Below are positions 24,499 to 48,423 of a DNA stretch of 64,000 nt, piece after piece. Source of the DNA: Armatimonadota bacterium (lineage in GTDB: Bacteria > Armatimonadota > DTGP01 > JAKQQT01). Under the pieces are notes generated by a model that was not told where the DNA came from, made no database searches, and saw only the letters and a list, made by a program, of their open reading frames with translations. The stretch lies in the NCBI GenBank assembly GCA_036504095.1, contig DASXVS010000071.1:62001-126000 (forward strand), given 5' to 3'. The position numbers and the translations under genes are program-made. The number at the start of each line of letters is the position of its first letter. Within the stretch, counting starts at the first letter, position 1.

Positions 24499-24935
24499 GG
24501 GGGCGAAAGGTCTCGACAGGGAAGGGATCGGCAGAGAACGCACGCCGAGGCGCCGTTGGCCTCGTTAAAAGCGGCAAAGCCATAACTGGCAACGTAACGA
24601 TGAAGACCGCTGAGAACATGATCGATCGCTCTTTTGCGACCAGTCCTGCTCTTGCGGTTGCCTAAGCTTAGACTTAGCGCCGGCGTCCGTCCCGGATGCT
24701 GTTAAATAGCCGCTACGGCGGTAGGGCACCGAAGCTGCTGGATGCAGCCACCCGGCCCGGGTAGGGCTTGCTGGAGGTCAACCGCTCACGGGACCACCGG
24801 GACTTTAGTGGGCTGGCGAGAGCGCCTCCCGTTCGTGGGAAAGCGCTTCGTGAGAAAAAGAAAACGCGGACTAAGCGTGTAGTGGGTTCTGTCTTACCTC
24901 TCTGGACCCGGGTTCGATTCCCGGCGTCTCCACCA
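24499..24935 (+). ncRNA. ssrA: Transfer-messenger RNA (tmRNA)
   Basis: One-piece tmRNA of about 437 nt. The 5' gggggcg and the 3' cgtctcc-a-cca form a seven-pair acceptor stem (two G-U pairs), and ggttcgattcc (24911-24921) is the T arm and loop. The CCA is encoded and ends at 24935. The tag frame probably resumes at GCT 24609 and stops at TAA 24663-24665, giving AENMIDRSFATSPALAVA, which starts and ends like known tags (A at the start, hydrophobic A-rich end for ClpXP). The resume codon is inferred. Its partner smpB is directly upstream. Confidence 0.95.
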
Positions 24936-39992: not shown

Positions 39993-40574
39993 TTACTTCC
40001 GGTCGAATCCCAGTGCCCCGTCAACGGCATCCCGTACCCTGTCTAGCGGAATGGGGCCGCAGCCGACATCGAGACATAGGTTCCGGAGTCGCGAAAGGGC
40101 AATGCTCTTCTGGAGGCCAAGAGCGGCTTCGATTTCTAGTTTGCCTAAGACGTAGAACTCCCACTGGGCGACGTCGAGAATGTGACATTCCTCGCGGCAT
40201 TTTGCCGTATGAACACAGAATACGTAGCAGTCGGCCGCTCTCTGCAGCGAATCGCCAAGCGTATTCGTCTGAGCATCCCAGGGAAGACGCTGCCGGATGT
40301 CAAAGACAATGCGACTTGGGCCAAACTGTGGCCAACTCTGTACGTAGCCGGACGACTTCACTTCGATGCCGCAGTCTCGATAGCGGAGATCTACGGCATC
40401 CCATTCGATACGAGCACAATCCACCACTTCCAGAGCTTTGCCTATCAGGTATTCGGCGAAAACGCTGCGAATCCCGTTGCTCACCACGTCGGAATACGCC
40501 CAGGACCAGAAATCCCCGACGGTGGACCTTTCAATCCCGGCAATCTGTGTATCGTGAGGAATCGGCCTCGTCAC
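39993..40574 (-). CDS. Uncharacterised protein with PD-(D/E)xK nuclease-like core
   Basis: 193 residues. DAVDLRYRDCGIEVKSSGYVQSW (Glu71, Lys73 and an upstream Asp around 60-68) fits the PD-(D/E)xK core of restriction-like nucleases, and SRIVFDIRQR with CYVFCVHT look like the following strands. No other family is recognised. The GTG at 40574 overlaps the leuC stop by 4 bp, so it is translationally coupled to leuC. Base composition seems a little lower in GC than neighbours. It may be a defence or mobile-derived gene, or a diverged nonenzyme; activity untested. Confidence 0.68.
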   Translation of the reverse strand: MTRPIPHDTQIAGIERSTVGDFWSWAYSDVVSNGIRSVFAEYLIGKALEVVDCARIEWDAVDLRYRDCGIEVKSSGYVQSWPQFGPSRIVFDIRQRLPWDAQTNTLGDSLQRAADCYVFCVHTAKCREECHILDVAQWEFYVLGKLEIEAALGLQKSIALSRLRNLCLDVGCGPIPLDRVRDAVDGALGFDRK

Positions 40575-41881
40575 ACATACTCCCGCGGGTCTGTTATGTA
40601 GCCATTCAGGGCGCTGGCGGCGACGGTCATCGGGCTGGCAAGGTAAACCTTACCTTCCTTGCTGCCCATCCTGCCCGGGAAGTTGCGGTTCGTCGTGCTG
40701 ATGCAGGATAGCGCGCTGTTCAGCCGCCCGAAAGTGTCGGAAGGCCCGCCGAGACATGCGGCGCAACTGGCCTGGCCAATCTGGGCCCCCGCCTCCTGGA
40801 ATATCTGCCAGAGGCTCTTCCCGTCCACCTTCTCCGTCCAAAGCGCCGCCGCCACTTCCGTGGTGGAAGGCACGACAAACGTGTCCATCTTGACCGTTTG
40901 CCCCTCGAGTATTCTCGCCGCCGCGATGAAGTCGGTGATCTTGCCGCCGGTGCACGAGCCGATGTAGGCCCGGTCCAGTTTTGTGCCCTTCAGTTCGCGG
41001 GCGGTTGTCTTGTTGTCCGGCGAATGCGGTTTCGCGACCGTCGGTTCCAGCTTGCTCACGTCGTAGTGGCGCTCGGAATAGAACTGCGCGTCGGCGTCGT
41101 TCGCCATGGCTTCGTAGTCGGACTTGGTTCCCGCTTTCCTGGTTCGCGCGTCCACGAAGTCCAGCGTCTTCCGGTCCGGCGCGATGATGCCGTTCTTGCC
41201 GCCAGCCTCGATCGCCATATTGCAGAGCGTCATGCGCTCTTCGATATTGAGGTCACCTATCGCCTGGCCGGCGAACTCAAGCGCGCGGTAGGTTGCGCCG
41301 TCCACGCCGATGTCGCCGATAACCTGGAGGATCAGGTCCTTCGCCATGAGATAGGGCGGCATTTCGCCCTCGAAGACGAACCGCATCGTCGGAGGAACCT
41401 TCAGCCACAGCTTGCCGGTGCCCAGGATGAAGCCCGCGTCCGTATTCCCGATGCCCGTCGCGAACTCGCCGAAAGCGCCCGCCGTGCACGTGTGGCTGTC
41501 CGTTCCGAAGAGCACCTCGCCCGGTCGGGTGTGACCTTCCTCGGGCAAGGCAATGTGGCACACTCCCTTGTAGCGCGTCGAGTTGACGTCGTAGTAGTAC
41601 GGCAGATCTTGTTCCTTCACGAAGTCGCGAAGAATGTCGACGTTGCGGTGCGCCTTTTCATCGGCTGTGAAGATGTAGTGATCCGGGATGATGACGACCT
41701 TGCTCTTGTCCCAGACCTTTGCCTCTGCGCCGAACTGCTCTTTGAAGATCTCGATCGTGCCAGGACCGCACACATCGTGCGTCATCAGCACGTCCACGTC
41801 CACCCAGATATTTTCACCCGGTTCCACGCTTGCCTTACCGGCATGCTTCGCCAGGATTTTCTCCGTCATTGTCATAGACAT
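40571..41881 (-). CDS. leuC: 3-isopropylmalate dehydratase large subunit
   Basis: 436 residues. Aconitase-family [4Fe-4S] enzyme: TEKILAKHAGK at the start, GTDSHTCTAGAFGEFATGIGNTD, and the cluster cysteines in IGSCTGGKITD and SCAACLGGP. RNFPGRMGS closes the active site. The start at 41881 matches the family N-terminus; ATG 41902 would add seven residues. LeuA is upstream (52 bp), and a nuclease-like gene overlaps the stop. Confidence 0.95.
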   Translation of the reverse strand: MSMTMTEKILAKHAGKASVEPGENIWVDVDVLMTHDVCGPGTIEIFKEQFGAEAKVWDKSKVVIIPDHYIFTADEKAHRNVDILRDFVKEQDLPYYYDVNSTRYKGVCHIALPEEGHTRPGEVLFGTDSHTCTAGAFGEFATGIGNTDAGFILGTGKLWLKVPPTMRFVFEGEMPPYLMAKDLILQVIGDIGVDGATYRALEFAGQAIGDLNIEERMTLCNMAIEAGGKNGIIAPDRKTLDFVDARTRKAGTKSDYEAMANDADAQFYSERHYDVSKLEPTVAKPHSPDNKTTARELKGTKLDRAYIGSCTGGKITDFIAAARILEGQTVKMDTFVVPSTTEVAAALWTEKVDGKSLWQIFQEAGAQIGQASCAACLGGPSDTFGRLNSALSCISTTNRNFPGRMGSKEGKVYLASPMTVAASALNGYITDPREYV

Positions 41882-41933
41882 ATCAAAACGCTCTTCCGTC
41901 ATTGTGGGCGGCCCGTGTGGGACGCCCGTCTGG

Positions 41934-43487
41934 TTATACCCGGTCTGTAACCGTTTCCTCGCTCGCGGGCTTGCCGGCGCCGCAGCGCGCGGCTATTTTG
42001 TTGATGGCCTGGATGTATGCCTTGGCGCTTGCTTCGACGATATCCAGTGCGCTTCCACGCCCTGTGAACACGTGTCCGTCCAGTTGCAGACGCACCGTCA
42101 CATCGGCCAGCGCGTCGGTGCCGCCCGTGACGCCGTGGACCATGTAGTCCTTGAGAGTGTACGGGATATTCACGATCTTGTCGATTGTCTTGTAGACGGC
42201 GTCCACGGCGCCGACCCCGGTCCCCGTCTCCAGGACGGCGCTGTCCTCGTGTTTCAACACGACCGTGGCGGTGGGATAGCCGTCCAGTGTCGTGTAGACG
42301 GTCATGTGGTCGAGGGCCCACTGCTCCGCGACAGCGTACACCTCGTCGGAAACAATGGCTTCGAGGTCGGCGTCATATATGTCCTTCTTGCGATCGGCCA
42401 TGTCCTTGAATCGGGCGAATGCGCGATTCAAGGCGTCCCGGTCCAGCTCGAAGCCCAGTTCCACCAGTCGTTTCTCGAAAGCGTGCCGGCCGCTGTGCTT
42501 GCCCAGTACCAGGCGGCTCTCAGCGAGACCTACGTCGGCCGGATCCATTATTTCGTAAGTGGTCCGTTCCATCATCACGCCGTGCTGGTGGATGCCGGCC
42601 TCATGGGCGAAGGCATTGGCGCCGACAATGGCTTTGTTCGGCTGGACGGCTGAACCAGTGACGTCGCTCACAAGCCGGCTCGCCCGCACGATCTCGCGCG
42701 TATTGATGCCAGTCTCCAGGCCAAACGCGTCTCCGCGCGTTTTGAGGATCATCACGATCTCTTCGAGGCTTGCGTTTCCCGCACGCTCACCGATGCCGTT
42801 GATGGTGCACTCCACCTGTCGCGCGCCCGCGGTGCAGGCGCTCAGGCTGTTCGCAACCGCCAGCCCCAGATCGTTGTGGCAGTGTACGCTCAGCGTGATG
42901 CCGGACGTTTCCGGCACGCGTTCGCGAACAACGATGATGAGTTCGAAATACTCGGTTGGCGTGGTGTAGCCCACCGTGTCCGGCAGGTTGATCGTGGTTG
43001 CCCCGGCGGCGATGGCCACCCGGACGACCTCGCACAGAAACCCGATGTCGCTCCGCGTGGCGTCCTCGGCGCTGAATTCCACGTCCGGCGTGTAGCTCTT
43101 GGCGCGGCGGACCGCCTTGTCCACCATCGCCAGCACTTCCTCGCGCGTCTTCTTCAGCTTGTATTTCAGGTGGATATCGCTTGTGGCGAGAAACGTGTGG
43201 ATGCGCGCGTTCTTGTTGCCTTGAATCGCTTCCCAGCAGCGGTCGATGTCGCCGTCGCTTGCCCGGCACAGGCCGCAAATGGTCGGCCCCTGAATGCGCT
43301 CCGCGATCGCCCGCACCGCCTCAAAATCACCGATGCTTGCGGCGGGGAAGCCGGCCTCAATCACATCAACGCCCAGCCGCGCCAATTGATTCGCGACTTC
43401 CAGTTTCTCTTCCAGGTTCATGCTGGCGCCGGGCGATTGTTCGCCGTCGCGCAGCGTCGTATCGAAAACCTTTACGGTATCAGCCAT
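41934..43487 (-). CDS. leuA: 2-isopropylmalate synthase
   Basis: 517 residues. It condenses acetyl-CoA and 2-oxoisovalerate, the first committed step to leucine. DTTLRDGEQSPGASMN gives the start of the HMGL-like barrel, with SVHCHNDLGLAVANSL carrying the metal-binding His pair. The C-terminal LeuA dimer/regulatory domain (about 365-505) shows GAVDAVYKTID, typical of leucine feedback. gaggggc lies 8 bases before ATG. The 266-bp leader upstream contains a small leucine-rich ORF and three hairpins (separate entries). Confidence 0.96.
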   Translation of the reverse strand: MADTVKVFDTTLRDGEQSPGASMNLEEKLEVANQLARLGVDVIEAGFPAASIGDFEAVRAIAERIQGPTICGLCRASDGDIDRCWEAIQGNKNARIHTFLATSDIHLKYKLKKTREEVLAMVDKAVRRAKSYTPDVEFSAEDATRSDIGFLCEVVRVAIAAGATTINLPDTVGYTTPTEYFELIIVVRERVPETSGITLSVHCHNDLGLAVANSLSACTAGARQVECTINGIGERAGNASLEEIVMILKTRGDAFGLETGINTREIVRASRLVSDVTGSAVQPNKAIVGANAFAHEAGIHQHGVMMERTTYEIMDPADVGLAESRLVLGKHSGRHAFEKRLVELGFELDRDALNRAFARFKDMADRKKDIYDADLEAIVSDEVYAVAEQWALDHMTVYTTLDGYPTATVVLKHEDSAVLETGTGVGAVDAVYKTIDKIVNIPYTLKDYMVHGVTGGTDALADVTVRLQLDGHVFTGRGSALDIVEASAKAYIQAINKIAARCGAGKPASEETVTDRV

Positions 43488-43754: not shown

Positions 43755-44822
<1,068 letters not shown>

Positions 44823-45032: not shown

Positions 45033-45563
45033 CTAACGGCCCTCCAGCATCGGCGCCTGAATCCCGCGCTCGCCATACGCCGTCGTGGCGCCGCGAGCCA
45101 TGACGATGGCTCCCGTCCGAACCGTTTCCTTGATACCATACGGGTGCAGGAGACGCTCAATGGCGTCAATCTTGTCCGGTTCGCCGGTCACTTCGAGCGT
45201 GAACGTGTCTTCGGGGCTCATGTCTACGATGTTTGCGCGGAATACATCGGCGATCTGCATGATTGCCTGGCGCGACTCCGGCGGCGCCGAGACTTTCACC
45301 AGCGCCAGTTCGCGCTGCAGCACTTCCTTGTCCGTGTAGTCCGCGACACGAACGACATCTATGAGCTTGTCCGTCTGCTTGACGATTTGCGCCAGGGTCT
45401 GGTCGTCGCCTTCCGCTACCAGCGTGATGCGGCTCACGGTCGGATCGTTGGTGATGCTGACAGCCAGCGAGGCAATGTTGAATCCGCGGCGCGCGAACAG
45501 GGACGCCACGCGGGCAAGCACGCCCGGCTTATTCTCGACCAGTACGGTTATCGTGTGTTGCAT
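45033..45563 (-). CDS. ilvN: Acetolactate synthase small (regulatory) subunit
   Basis: 176 residues. An ACT domain (residues 3-77, MQHTITVLVENKPGVLARVASLFARRGFNI) binds valine or another branched-chain amino acid and controls IlvB; the C-terminal ALS_ss_C domain (about 85-160) follows. The ATG at 45563 has gggagc 5 bases upstream. Unlike most genomes, ilvB and ilvN are separated by a zinc-ribbon gene. Confidence 0.95.
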   Translation of the reverse strand: MQHTITVLVENKPGVLARVASLFARRGFNIASLAVSITNDPTVSRITLVAEGDDQTLAQIVKQTDKLIDVVRVADYTDKEVLQRELALVKVSAPPESRQAIMQIADVFRANIVDMSPEDTFTLEVTGEPDKIDAIERLLHPYGIKETVRTGAIVMARGATTAYGERGIQAPMLEGR

Positions 45564-45628
45564 ATTGCTCCCATCTTGACAGTTGCCACGGACCGGAAAC
45601 CCCGTCCCAGGCGCCCGACACTGAGTTA

Positions 45629-46240
45629 TCACTCCACCCACGTGTGCCCACAATCCAAGCAGCGGTGACGCATGACCTTGACGCGGCCGACATCGCGGTT
45701 CCAGTCCACGCGATTGGTGCGGTACATTCCTATGGTGCCAAACAACATGGTGCCCAACGCCGCGGCATCGGATACGATGTCAACGGCGGTCGATACCCAG
45801 TCGTTCTTCCATTGGCGCTCAACGTTTGTACCCGCGCACATCGGGCAATGGACGATCGGAGCGGTATCCATAAACGGCACGCCGCTTACCGGCAGCGGCT
45901 GCACCGCCACATTCCGAGTCGCGAAACACGTGTTGCACATCTCCTGCCGCTCCGACACGATAAACGGTATTTTCCGGTGGCACACCGTGCAGTAGCGCGG
46001 GTTGAACTCGTCCTCCGCCGTCCATTCATCGGACTCTGATTCCGCCTTCGGCGTCAACGCAGGCAGAACCTCTTGTTCGGGCGCTCGCAACGGCTCATAC
46101 GTCCGGGACGATGACGGGGCCCCTTCCGCTTGAAGCGGTGTCGGTACGTCGAAACCGGGCGGTTGCGCCGTTTCCGTCCCCGCATCCGGGGCCGGCCCAG
46201 CCGGCCCCATATGCCTGTCGATGTCGTCCCAGGAATTCAT
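45629..46240 (-). CDS. Uncharacterised zinc-ribbon protein between ilvB and ilvN
   Basis: 203 residues. The N-terminal 85 are proline-rich, acidic and probably disordered. From about 85 are cysteine pairs CTVC...CNTC, then CPMC and CLDC (CTVCHRKIPFIVS, MCNTCFATRN, VHCPMCAGTN, HRCLDCGHTW), forming two or three zinc knuckles. No membrane span. The ATG is 3 bp after the ilvB stop, so it is co-translated. Not recognised as a known family. Confidence 0.7.
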   Translation of the reverse strand: MNSWDDIDRHMGPAGPAPDAGTETAQPPGFDVPTPLQAEGAPSSSRTYEPLRAPEQEVLPALTPKAESESDEWTAEDEFNPRYCTVCHRKIPFIVSERQEMCNTCFATRNVAVQPLPVSGVPFMDTAPIVHCPMCAGTNVERQWKNDWVSTAVDIVSDAAALGTMLFGTIGMYRTNRVDWNRDVGRVKVMRHRCLDCGHTWVE

Positions 46241-46243
46241 CCG

Positions 46244-47971
46244 TTATCCGGGGATATTGGCCTTGTCCAGATCCCCTGCCTCCAACGCCGTCGGCGCGCG
46301 CAGAATCATGTTGTGCACGGTGCTTCCCGCGGGAATCATCGGAAAGACGTTTCCCTCTTTCAGAACCTGCATGTCGATAACCGTCGGCCTGTCCGTGATA
46401 TTTCGCGCCGCCTCCAGCGTGCTGACCACGTCCTCCGCCTTGTCGCATCGCAAACTTGCCGCGCCGTACGCTTCCGCCAGCTTCACAAAGTCCGGAGCCT
46501 GCTCCATATCCGTTTCACTGTAGCGTCCGTCGAGGAACATTGCCTGCCATTGGCGCACCATTCCCAGGAATTTGTTGTTCAAGATCAGGATCTTGATGGG
46601 CAGTTTATTGACCACCGCCACGATCAGTTCCTGGATGCACATCTGAATGCTGCCGTCGCCGGTGATGAGCCAGACCTCGTCGTTCGGGCACGCGAACTGC
46701 GCGCCGATCGAGGCCGGCAGGCCGTAACCCATGGTCCCGAGGCCGCCGGATGTGATGAACTGGCGCGGCCGCTTCACCTTGTAGAACTGGGCGGCCCACA
46801 TCTGGTGCTGCCCCACGTCGGTCACGACCAACGCATTCCCGTTTGTCGCCTTCCAGAGTTCGTCCAGTACATATTGGCTGTGCAGGGCGCCGTCGTCGCG
46901 CGGGTAGTCGAACGGGTGCTCCGCCATCCAGCCTTCAACGCGATCGTTCCAGACGGAGCGGTCGCGCAGGGCAACCGCCTGCACCAGCGCTCCTGCCACA
47001 GCCTTCGCGTCACCCAGCAACTGCAGGTGCGGGTTCTTGACCTTGCCGAACTCGGCCGGGTCGATATCGGCGTGGATGATGGTCGCGTGCGGTACGAATT
47101 CGTCGATTTTGCCGGTTACACGGTCGTCAAAGCGCGCCCCGATGGCGATCAGCAGGTCGCAATCCCGAACAGCCCAGTTCGAGGCCACACTGCCGTGCAT
47201 TCCCAGCATACCCAGGCTCAGCGGGTCGGTTTCGTCGAAAGCGCCCTTGCCCATCAGCGTCGTGGTGATCGGAATGTTGGTCTTTCGCACCAGCGCATCG
47301 ATTTCCGAGGCCGCTCCGGCGTTGATGACGCCGCCACCCACATACAGTACGGGTCGCTCCGCCTTGGCGATGAGCTCGGCCGCCGCGTCAATGCTCTCCG
47401 GGTCGACCGGATAGTCCACGGTATAGGATCGAGGACGTGTGACGACCTTTTCCGGGTCGTAATCGACCTCGGTCAGCAGCATGTCTTTGGGGACGTCGAT
47501 CAGCACCGGGCCCGGGCGCCCCGTGCGGGATATCGTGAAGGCCTGCGCCACGGTATCCGCGACCTTGGTGGCATCCTTGACCAGATAGTTGTGCTTCGTG
47601 CAGTTCATGGTGATGCCGGTCACGTCCGCTTCCTGGAAAGCGTCCTTGCCGATCATCGGGGACGCCACCTGTGCGGTGATCGCCACGATCGGCGTACTAT
47701 CCATCAAAGCGTCCGCGAGGGGTGTGACGAGGTTGGTTGCGCCCGGCCCGGACGTCGCAAGGCAGCTGCCAACGCGGCCGGATGCCCGGGCGTAGCCTTC
47801 CGCCATGTGCCCGGCGCCCTGTTCGTGCCGGACGAGAATATGTGTTATGCCCGTGGTGCCGTAAAGCGCGTCGTAGATCGGCAACGCCGCGCCGCCCGGA
47901 TATCCGAAGATGATCTCGACGCCCTCGCGCTTCAGTTGTTCCACCAGGGCCTCGGCCCCATTCATCTTCAT
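46244..47971 (-). CDS. ilvB: Acetolactate synthase large (catalytic) subunit
   Basis: 575 residues, TPP- and FAD-dependent. The catalytic Glu50 lies in RHEQGAGHMAEGYARASG; the FAD region is about 190-330; the TPP/Mg motif is GDGSIQMCIQELIVAVVNKLPIKI with the downstream NN. It makes acetolactate from two pyruvates, starting valine and leucine synthesis. The mRNA leader carries a T-box riboswitch. ggagcg lies before the ATG, and a word-like hairpin lies between the T-box terminator and the start. Confidence 0.97.
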   Translation of the reverse strand: MKMNGAEALVEQLKREGVEIIFGYPGGAALPIYDALYGTTGITHILVRHEQGAGHMAEGYARASGRVGSCLATSGPGATNLVTPLADALMDSTPIVAITAQVASPMIGKDAFQEADVTGITMNCTKHNYLVKDATKVADTVAQAFTISRTGRPGPVLIDVPKDMLLTEVDYDPEKVVTRPRSYTVDYPVDPESIDAAAELIAKAERPVLYVGGGVINAGAASEIDALVRKTNIPITTTLMGKGAFDETDPLSLGMLGMHGSVASNWAVRDCDLLIAIGARFDDRVTGKIDEFVPHATIIHADIDPAEFGKVKNPHLQLLGDAKAVAGALVQAVALRDRSVWNDRVEGWMAEHPFDYPRDDGALHSQYVLDELWKATNGNALVVTDVGQHQMWAAQFYKVKRPRQFITSGGLGTMGYGLPASIGAQFACPNDEVWLITGDGSIQMCIQELIVAVVNKLPIKILILNNKFLGMVRQWQAMFLDGRYSETDMEQAPDFVKLAEAYGAASLRCDKAEDVVSTLEAARNITDRPTVIDMQVLKEGNVFPMIPAGSTVHNMILRAPTALEAGDLDKANIPG

Positions 47972-47988
47972 AACTCGCTCCGCTCCCA

Positions 47989-48040
47989 GTTCCGAGTTTC
48001 GAGTTCCGCATTCCGAGACTCGGAACTAGGAACTCGGAAC
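47989..48040. repeat. Word-like inverted repeat between the T-box terminator and ilvB
   Basis: 47989-48008 and 48021-48040 are reverse complements over 20 bp with two mismatches, built from gttccgag words. It directly abuts the T-tract of the T-box terminator. Confidence 0.7.
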
Positions 48041-48041
48041 C

Positions 48042-48387
48042 AAAAAGAAAAATCCCCCCGTCCGCTTTGGGACGAGAGGTTGCTCGTGGTACCACCCAAG
48101 TTCGCCGACCCGCAAGCGGGCCTGCCTTGTTAAGACGCCATATCGGTGGCGACTACCGGGGAAACCTACTTTGCCGCATCCACTCTCACTGTAGGGCCGG
48201 CCTCCATGCCGGTCTTCCATGAGACAGGCAGAGACGCCTGTCCTACTGTGAGCGTTGTGCGGTGTTCAGAATCCCTGCTCCGAGGCGAGCGTTCAGCGGT
48301 GGGTGGGACCGGTTCTCAGCTTCAGCCCGGCTCTCTTTGCCGCGCCCGTCCCGCTTACTTCTCCTCATCAACGCGTTTTATGCAATT
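48042..48387 (-). promoter_or_regulatory. T-box riboswitch (probable leucine, CUC specifier) upstream of ilvB
   Basis: Read on the minus strand. The 5' part has gatgaggagaagta (AGUA bulge region of stem I), agagagccggg in stem I, and a specifier region gaacgctcgcctcggagc, in which CTC (Leu) is followed by GC-CTCGGAG as in ilv-leu T-boxes. The T-box sequence tgggtggtaccacg (48085-48098) is near-canonical. The terminator is ggacgagagg / ccccccgtcc (48070-48079 and 48054-48063), a 10-bp stem with two G-U pairs, then ATTTTTCTTTTT. Uncharged tRNA-Leu would favour the antiterminator and ilvB transcription. Specifier frame is inferred. Confidence 0.85.
48192..48247. repeat. Compound palindrome inside the T-box leader
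   Basis: Two related hairpins back to back: gtagggccggcctccatgcc... and its inverted counterpart ending gcctgtcctac. ggccggcctccatgccggt and gacaggcagagacgcctgtc are each self-complementary. The ends gtagg/cctac (48192-48196, 48243-48247) close the whole. It occupies the variable region between stem I and the T-box sequence and looks like an inserted intergenic repeat. Confidence 0.55.
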
Positions 48388-48393
48388 GTTCGT

Positions 48394-48423
48394 ATCATAC
48401 CGCACAATCCCCCGCCGCGTCAA
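48394..48423 (-). promoter_or_regulatory. Promoter of the ilvB T-box transcript
   Basis: Minus strand -35 ttgacg (48423-48418) and -10 tatgat (48399-48394), spacing 18 bp, about 7 bases before the predicted T-box 5' end. One of the best sigma-70-like promoters in the window. Confidence 0.75.

Follow-up and report, generated by a model that had tools for sequence, protein, structure and literature searches.

A complete T-box leader with a CUC (Leu) specifier precedes the ilv-leu genes on the minus strand of the window, a 64,000-nt stretch of an Armatimonadota genome, and the tip of its stem II carries a hairpin whose arms belong to a dispersed repeat. The hairpin is absent from the orthologous leader of a genome of the same family (G059). 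We conclude that this is very probably an ordinary transcription-attenuating leucine T-box whose stem II tip tolerates a dispersed repeat hairpin.

The leader and its downstream genes

The Rfam T-box model (RF00230) matched the minus strand at 48380-48065 over its full length (model positions 1-219; 83.7 bits, E 1.3e-18). Additionally, a stem I covariance model (R1), built on 61 relatives with the window excluded, recognised the window site (77.4 bits, E 5.2e-21) as its single match up to E 10 in the 64 kb. The claim of the earlier note that the T-box is complete is supported. The marks listed there, namely promoter, AGUA, stem I block, specifier region, T-box, terminator and T-tract, are all present on the minus strand, a strand that the note leaves unnamed, with AGUA and the AAGAGAGCCGGG block both lying within stem I. 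The covariance check that the note had proposed turned out significant and full length, but its score is below the RF00230 gathering score of 93, which is a curation threshold and not an anatomical feature. Because of this score, the default Rfam scan of the whole window omits the T-box and lists a tmRNA as its sole match. In the RF00230 search of the genome (4,680,540 bases in 80 contigs, E<=10), the window T-box was the sole match. The tmRNA, at 24499-24935, was found by Rfam (143.8 bits) and not by ARAGORN. A scan with Rfam at permissive settings also gave miRNA and sRNA matches (E 0.017 to 8), which were rejected as chance, being far under their gathering scores and lying partly on palindromic repeats. 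Folding the leader globally for minimum free energy did not reproduce the full canonical T-box.

The ilvB T-box of G059 is preceded by a similar promoter (TTGACG-18-TAGACT), and the terminator recurs there too. In the window, the T-box sequence TGGGTGGTACCACG lies at 48098-48085. Antiterminator and terminator are mutually exclusive, since CTCGTCCC is used by both, and their folding energies are -16.5 kcal/mol for the terminator and -6.2 kcal/mol for the antiterminator alone.

Table 1. Coordinates of the leader, its parts and the neighbouring genes in the window.
Feature	Position	Strand	Evidence
Sigma-70-type promoter, TTGACG-18-TATGAT	48394..48423	-	Consensus scan, 10/12 matches; shuffles give 0.1
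T-box leader, whole Rfam match	48065..48380	-	RF00230, 83.7 bits, E 1.3e-18
Stem I	48277..48374	-	Covariance model R1, 77.4 bits, E 5.2e-21
Specifier codon CUC (Leu)	48287..48289	-	Frame set by the closing helix of the specifier loop; U as middle base in 61/61 relatives
Stem II, S-turn sides UGAAC and AAAGUA, apex split by insert	48159..48275	-	Rfam alignment and local fold
Inserted hairpin at stem II tip, arms of a dispersed repeat	48185..48252	-	Absent in G059 orthologue; arm motif 21 times in genome
Stem IIA/B region	48136..48158	-	Rfam alignment
T-box sequence and antiterminator, bulge UGGU	48068..48098	-	Rfam alignment; sequence
Intrinsic terminator stem, 10 pairs; T tract at 48053-48042	48054..48079	-	Scan and fold
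Another dispersed palindromic repeat, lying between ilvB and the terminator	47988..48041	-	76 further matches in own genome
ilvB, acetolactate synthase large subunit	46244..47971	-	TIGR00118, 757.8 bits, above cut-off
203-aa Cys-rich ORF, located between ilvB and ilvN and containing several CxxC pairs	45629..46240	-	No NCBIfam or Pfam match
ilvN ORF	45033..45653	-	NF008864, 213.1 bits, match begins at residue 31; true start probably near 45563
ilvC	43755..44777	-	NF004017, 556.5 bits
leuA	41934..43487	-	TIGR00973, 721.5 bits
Aconitase / 3-isopropylmalate dehydratase large subunit family (leuC-like)	40571..41902	-	NF001614, 495.1 bits

As the earlier note had proposed, ilvB (TIGR00118) is the gene directly downstream of the leader. 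The other ilv and leu genes follow, with leuB beyond the leuC-like gene, and the gaps of about 255-270 nt before ilvC and leuA could leave room for other promoters. The repeat between the terminator and ilvB, a GTTCCGAGTTCC-type palindrome, had been overlooked; its 76 further matches often count both strands at one site. A 441-nt query covering the whole leader gave 77 further matches in its own genome, of which 76 were to this palindromic repeat, one was to the stem II insert and none was to the T-box core.

The specifier and its setting in the phylum

Among 291 genomes of the phylum surveyed with RF00230, 151 matched at E<=1e-4 and 96 above the gathering score. The suggestion of the earlier note that T-boxes are sparse in such lineages therefore does not hold here; at the gathering score, T-boxes are undercounted in this phylum, about half of whose surveyed genomes have them. 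The earlier view of few T-boxes outside Firmicutes rests on 242 genomes, according to the part of PMC2494555 available. Our literature search found nothing on T-boxes or riboswitches in Armatimonadetes/Armatimonadota, and nothing for the T-box riboswitch across phyla, Chloroflexi and Deinococcus.

The nearest genomes with T-boxes are G059 (same family, one T-box) and G058 (same class, two T-boxes used). Together with the window T-box, these three, 30 survey loci and 40 elements picked for a length of about 289 nt or more made up a comparison set of 74, which is skewed to high scores and long elements by the way its members were picked. Stem I was aligned for 61 of the 73 others; the remaining 12 were excluded, either because their stem I had an atypical length or by name. 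The consensus of these 61 relatives has 18 pairs, 16 of them with at least one double compensatory change. Stem I of the window is identical to that of G059 at 90 of 106 bases; two modelled pairs are altered on both sides with pairing kept. Of the modelled pairs, 6-118 and 42-86 are non-standard in the window.

The specifier region (GAACGCTCGCCTCGGAGC, about 48294-48277) is read as CUC because the frame is fixed by the conserved helix closing the specifier loop, which is paired in 60 or 61 of the 61 relatives (alignment columns 15-18 with 109-112). Counting from this helix gives CUC, as does the rule of TBDB, stated in the excerpt of PMC7778990, that the specifier comprises nucleotides 2-4 from the loop end. 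Moreover, the R1 model places the window CUC in the same columns as the specifiers of the relatives, where the middle base is U in 61/61 at frame 0, in 1/61 at frame -1 and in 0/61 at frame +1. If the count starts at GAA and allows one spacer base, as most relatives have, the specifier becomes GCU (Ala), and the genome encodes a tRNA-Ala(GGC). Nevertheless, the spacer between AA and the specifier is not fixed, being 1 nt in 52 relatives, 0 in seven and 2 in two, and the two with 2 nt, like the window, are its closest relatives (the G059 ilvB and G058 leuA T-boxes). With the closing helix, the single middle U at frame -1 and an ilv-leu operon downstream also against it, use of an alternative frame, whether GCU or UCG (Ser), is extremely unlikely. 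The probable leucine specifier of the earlier note is thus upheld by the closing helix and the stem I alignment as CUC, not GCU or CGC.

The CUC specifier agrees with the genes downstream and with the tRNA complement of the genome. Five tRNA-Leu genes were found, one of which has the anticodon GAG, whose presence the earlier note had wished to see checked. The 3' end of this tRNA-Leu(GAG) is A-CCA (discriminator A), and ACCA fits the UGGU bulge of the T-box.

The frame-0 specifiers of the 61 relatives are CUC (31), GUC (20), AUG (7), AUC (2) and UUC (1). Downstream genes were called by script from N-terminal signatures, which left 8 of the 74 genes without an assignment. An NCBIfam check covered one representative each of leuA, thrC, ilvD, valS, cimA and ileS; for the pheS piece, no NCBIfam match was found in the same check. 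These genes fit the specifiers: CUC occurs with ilvB, ilvD and leuA, GUC with valS and ilvD, AUC with cimA and ileS, and UUC with pheS, the AUG T-boxes being the exception. Two ileS T-boxes (L173 and L174) were scripted as AUG, but their sequence rows show ATATCACC, read as AUC. The script also assigned GUC to two T-boxes that precede ilvB-like genes; by its sequence, one of these T-boxes is L171.

Several further observations were made on this set. All 61 aligned specifiers (alignment A1, columns 105-107) are U-centred and belong to Leu, Val, Met, Ile or Phe, in a sample skewed to high-scoring, long elements. Nine AUG (Met) T-boxes (L151, L172, L186, L190, L191, L192, L194, L195 and L209) all lie upstream of a threonine synthase-like gene, which for L151 is thrC by NCBIfam. 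L171 and L189, both from genome G003, carry inverted-repeat stretches that resemble each other, located in the stem III region between IIA/B and the T-box.

A probable dispersed repeat hairpin at the tip of stem II

Between the two S-turn sides, stem II of the window reads CCGCA-CAACG-[68 nt]-AGUGGA-UGCGG, whereas that of the G059 ilvB T-box reads CCGCG-CCUUGA-CGCGG, with a 6-nt loop and no insert. On this comparison, a reading of the hairpin, overlooked in the earlier note, as a normal stem II was rejected. Local folding gives an identical lower part of stem II and an identical S-turn loop whether the insert is kept or removed, and also for G059. The ends of the insert are inverted repeats (CTCACAGTAGG and CCTACAGTGAG) with one mismatch. 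The arm motif CCGGCANGGAGGCCGGCCCNAC occurs 21 times in the genome, itself included, with at most two mismatches, and its reversed-pattern control 0 times; some of these occurrences are the two arms of one element (e.g. C69:38175 and 38212), and a part of them may fall within coding regions. Searching the genome with a 72-nt query gave seven other matches, all partial (best E 2.9e-4), and no full-length second copy of the insert. No target-site duplication was obvious by eye in the flanks of the insert, with G059 as the single empty-site relative for comparison. REPIN and BOX identity were weighed for the repeat and no family was assigned.

Stem II inserts were also found in other T-boxes of the phylum, and copies were sought within the genomes of the window, G058 and G228. 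The 376-nt leuA T-box of G058 (L152, same class) has a stem II insert, and all 38 further matches in G058 fall within query positions 106-225, that is, the insert and its edges; the only other match of this query, in G000, is stem I of the window T-box. The 303-nt valS T-box of G228 (L203, same phylum) likewise carries a stem II insert; apart from its own palindrome, the search gave 49 further matches, all at query positions 122-198. The insert of the 415-nt thrC T-box of G058 (L151) is long and gave only two weak further matches in its own genome. At the level of the class, three of four T-boxes thus have a stem II insert; dispersal is clear for the L152 insert itself, concerns an arm motif in the window and has weak evidence in L151.

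Instead of an inserted repeat, the hairpin might be a lineage-specific functional domain of the T-box, for example one in contact with the tRNA. As far as the excerpts of PMC7583486 go, insertions of unknown function are known from all T-box domains, and reported lengths of the stem II region span about 10-200 nt; the lack of a full-length second copy also fits such a domain. However, the orthologue of G059 lacks the hairpin although it belongs to the same family, the arm motif is dispersed through the genome, and unrelated dispersed repeats occupy the same place in other T-boxes, so that we regard a functional domain as unlikely. Decay of the T-box, broken by the insert or by the repeat behind the terminator, appears very unlikely. 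Two repeats do lie in or beside it, and RF00230 gives it 83.7 bits with the insert vs 99.9 for the uninterrupted orthologue of G059, but its specifier, T-box, terminator and S-turn are all intact, the local fold of stem II is the same with and without the insert, and the stem I differences from G059 preserve pairing.

Proposed function and comparison with known systems

The anatomy is that of a transcriptional leucine T-box, and none of the results speaks against function. A working leucine T-box with a tolerated repeat would operate as follows. The transcript would begin just 3' of the promoter, and stems I and II would clamp tRNA-Leu(GAG) by way of the CUC specifier. When this tRNA is uncharged, its ACCA end would pair with the UGGU bulge and favour the antiterminator, allowing transcription of ilvB and the following ilv-leu genes; with charged tRNA, the strong terminator would form. 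The dispersed hairpin is predicted to lengthen stem II outwards from its tip, leaving the S-turn and the switch unchanged, and may be tolerated there.

For the phylum at large, we consider it about as likely as not that unrelated dispersed palindromic repeats have landed repeatedly at the tip of stem II, and that some of the stem II insertions specific to single lineages are mobile repeats accommodated at a tip that tolerates insertion, as opposed to new domains that contact the tRNA. A 2020 review (PMC7583486), in the sections available, counts the insertions in T-box domains among the open questions and proposes new contacts with the tRNA; for some of these insertions, a repeat inserted at the tip of stem II would be a simpler, testable origin. 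The finding also hints at where T-box switches tolerate insertions.

In a literature search on T-boxes, on riboswitches with transposable elements and on STRR in RNase P RNA, judged from the listings, no repeat inside a T-box stem II was found. Going by the title of Vioque 1997, STRR repeats reportedly occur inside the RNase P RNA of cyanobacteria, which are likewise repeats in a structured RNA gene, although the RNA and the repeat are different. In Streptococcus pneumoniae, a BOX element between two trp T-boxes is reported to be compatible with regulation (PMC3049150, in part). There, as in the window, a dispersed repeat is transcribed within a T-box leader, but the pneumococcal repeat lies between two T-boxes, whereas that of the window lies inside one, in stem II. 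With known ilv-leu T-box leaders with a CUC specifier (RF00230), the window leader shares stem I, specifier loop, stem II S-turn, IIA/B, T-box, antiterminator/terminator and ilvB downstream, and CUC makes up 77% of the Leu specifiers in TBDB according to the excerpt of PMC7778990. It differs from them in the repeat hairpin at the tip of stem II and in one extra base before the specifier.
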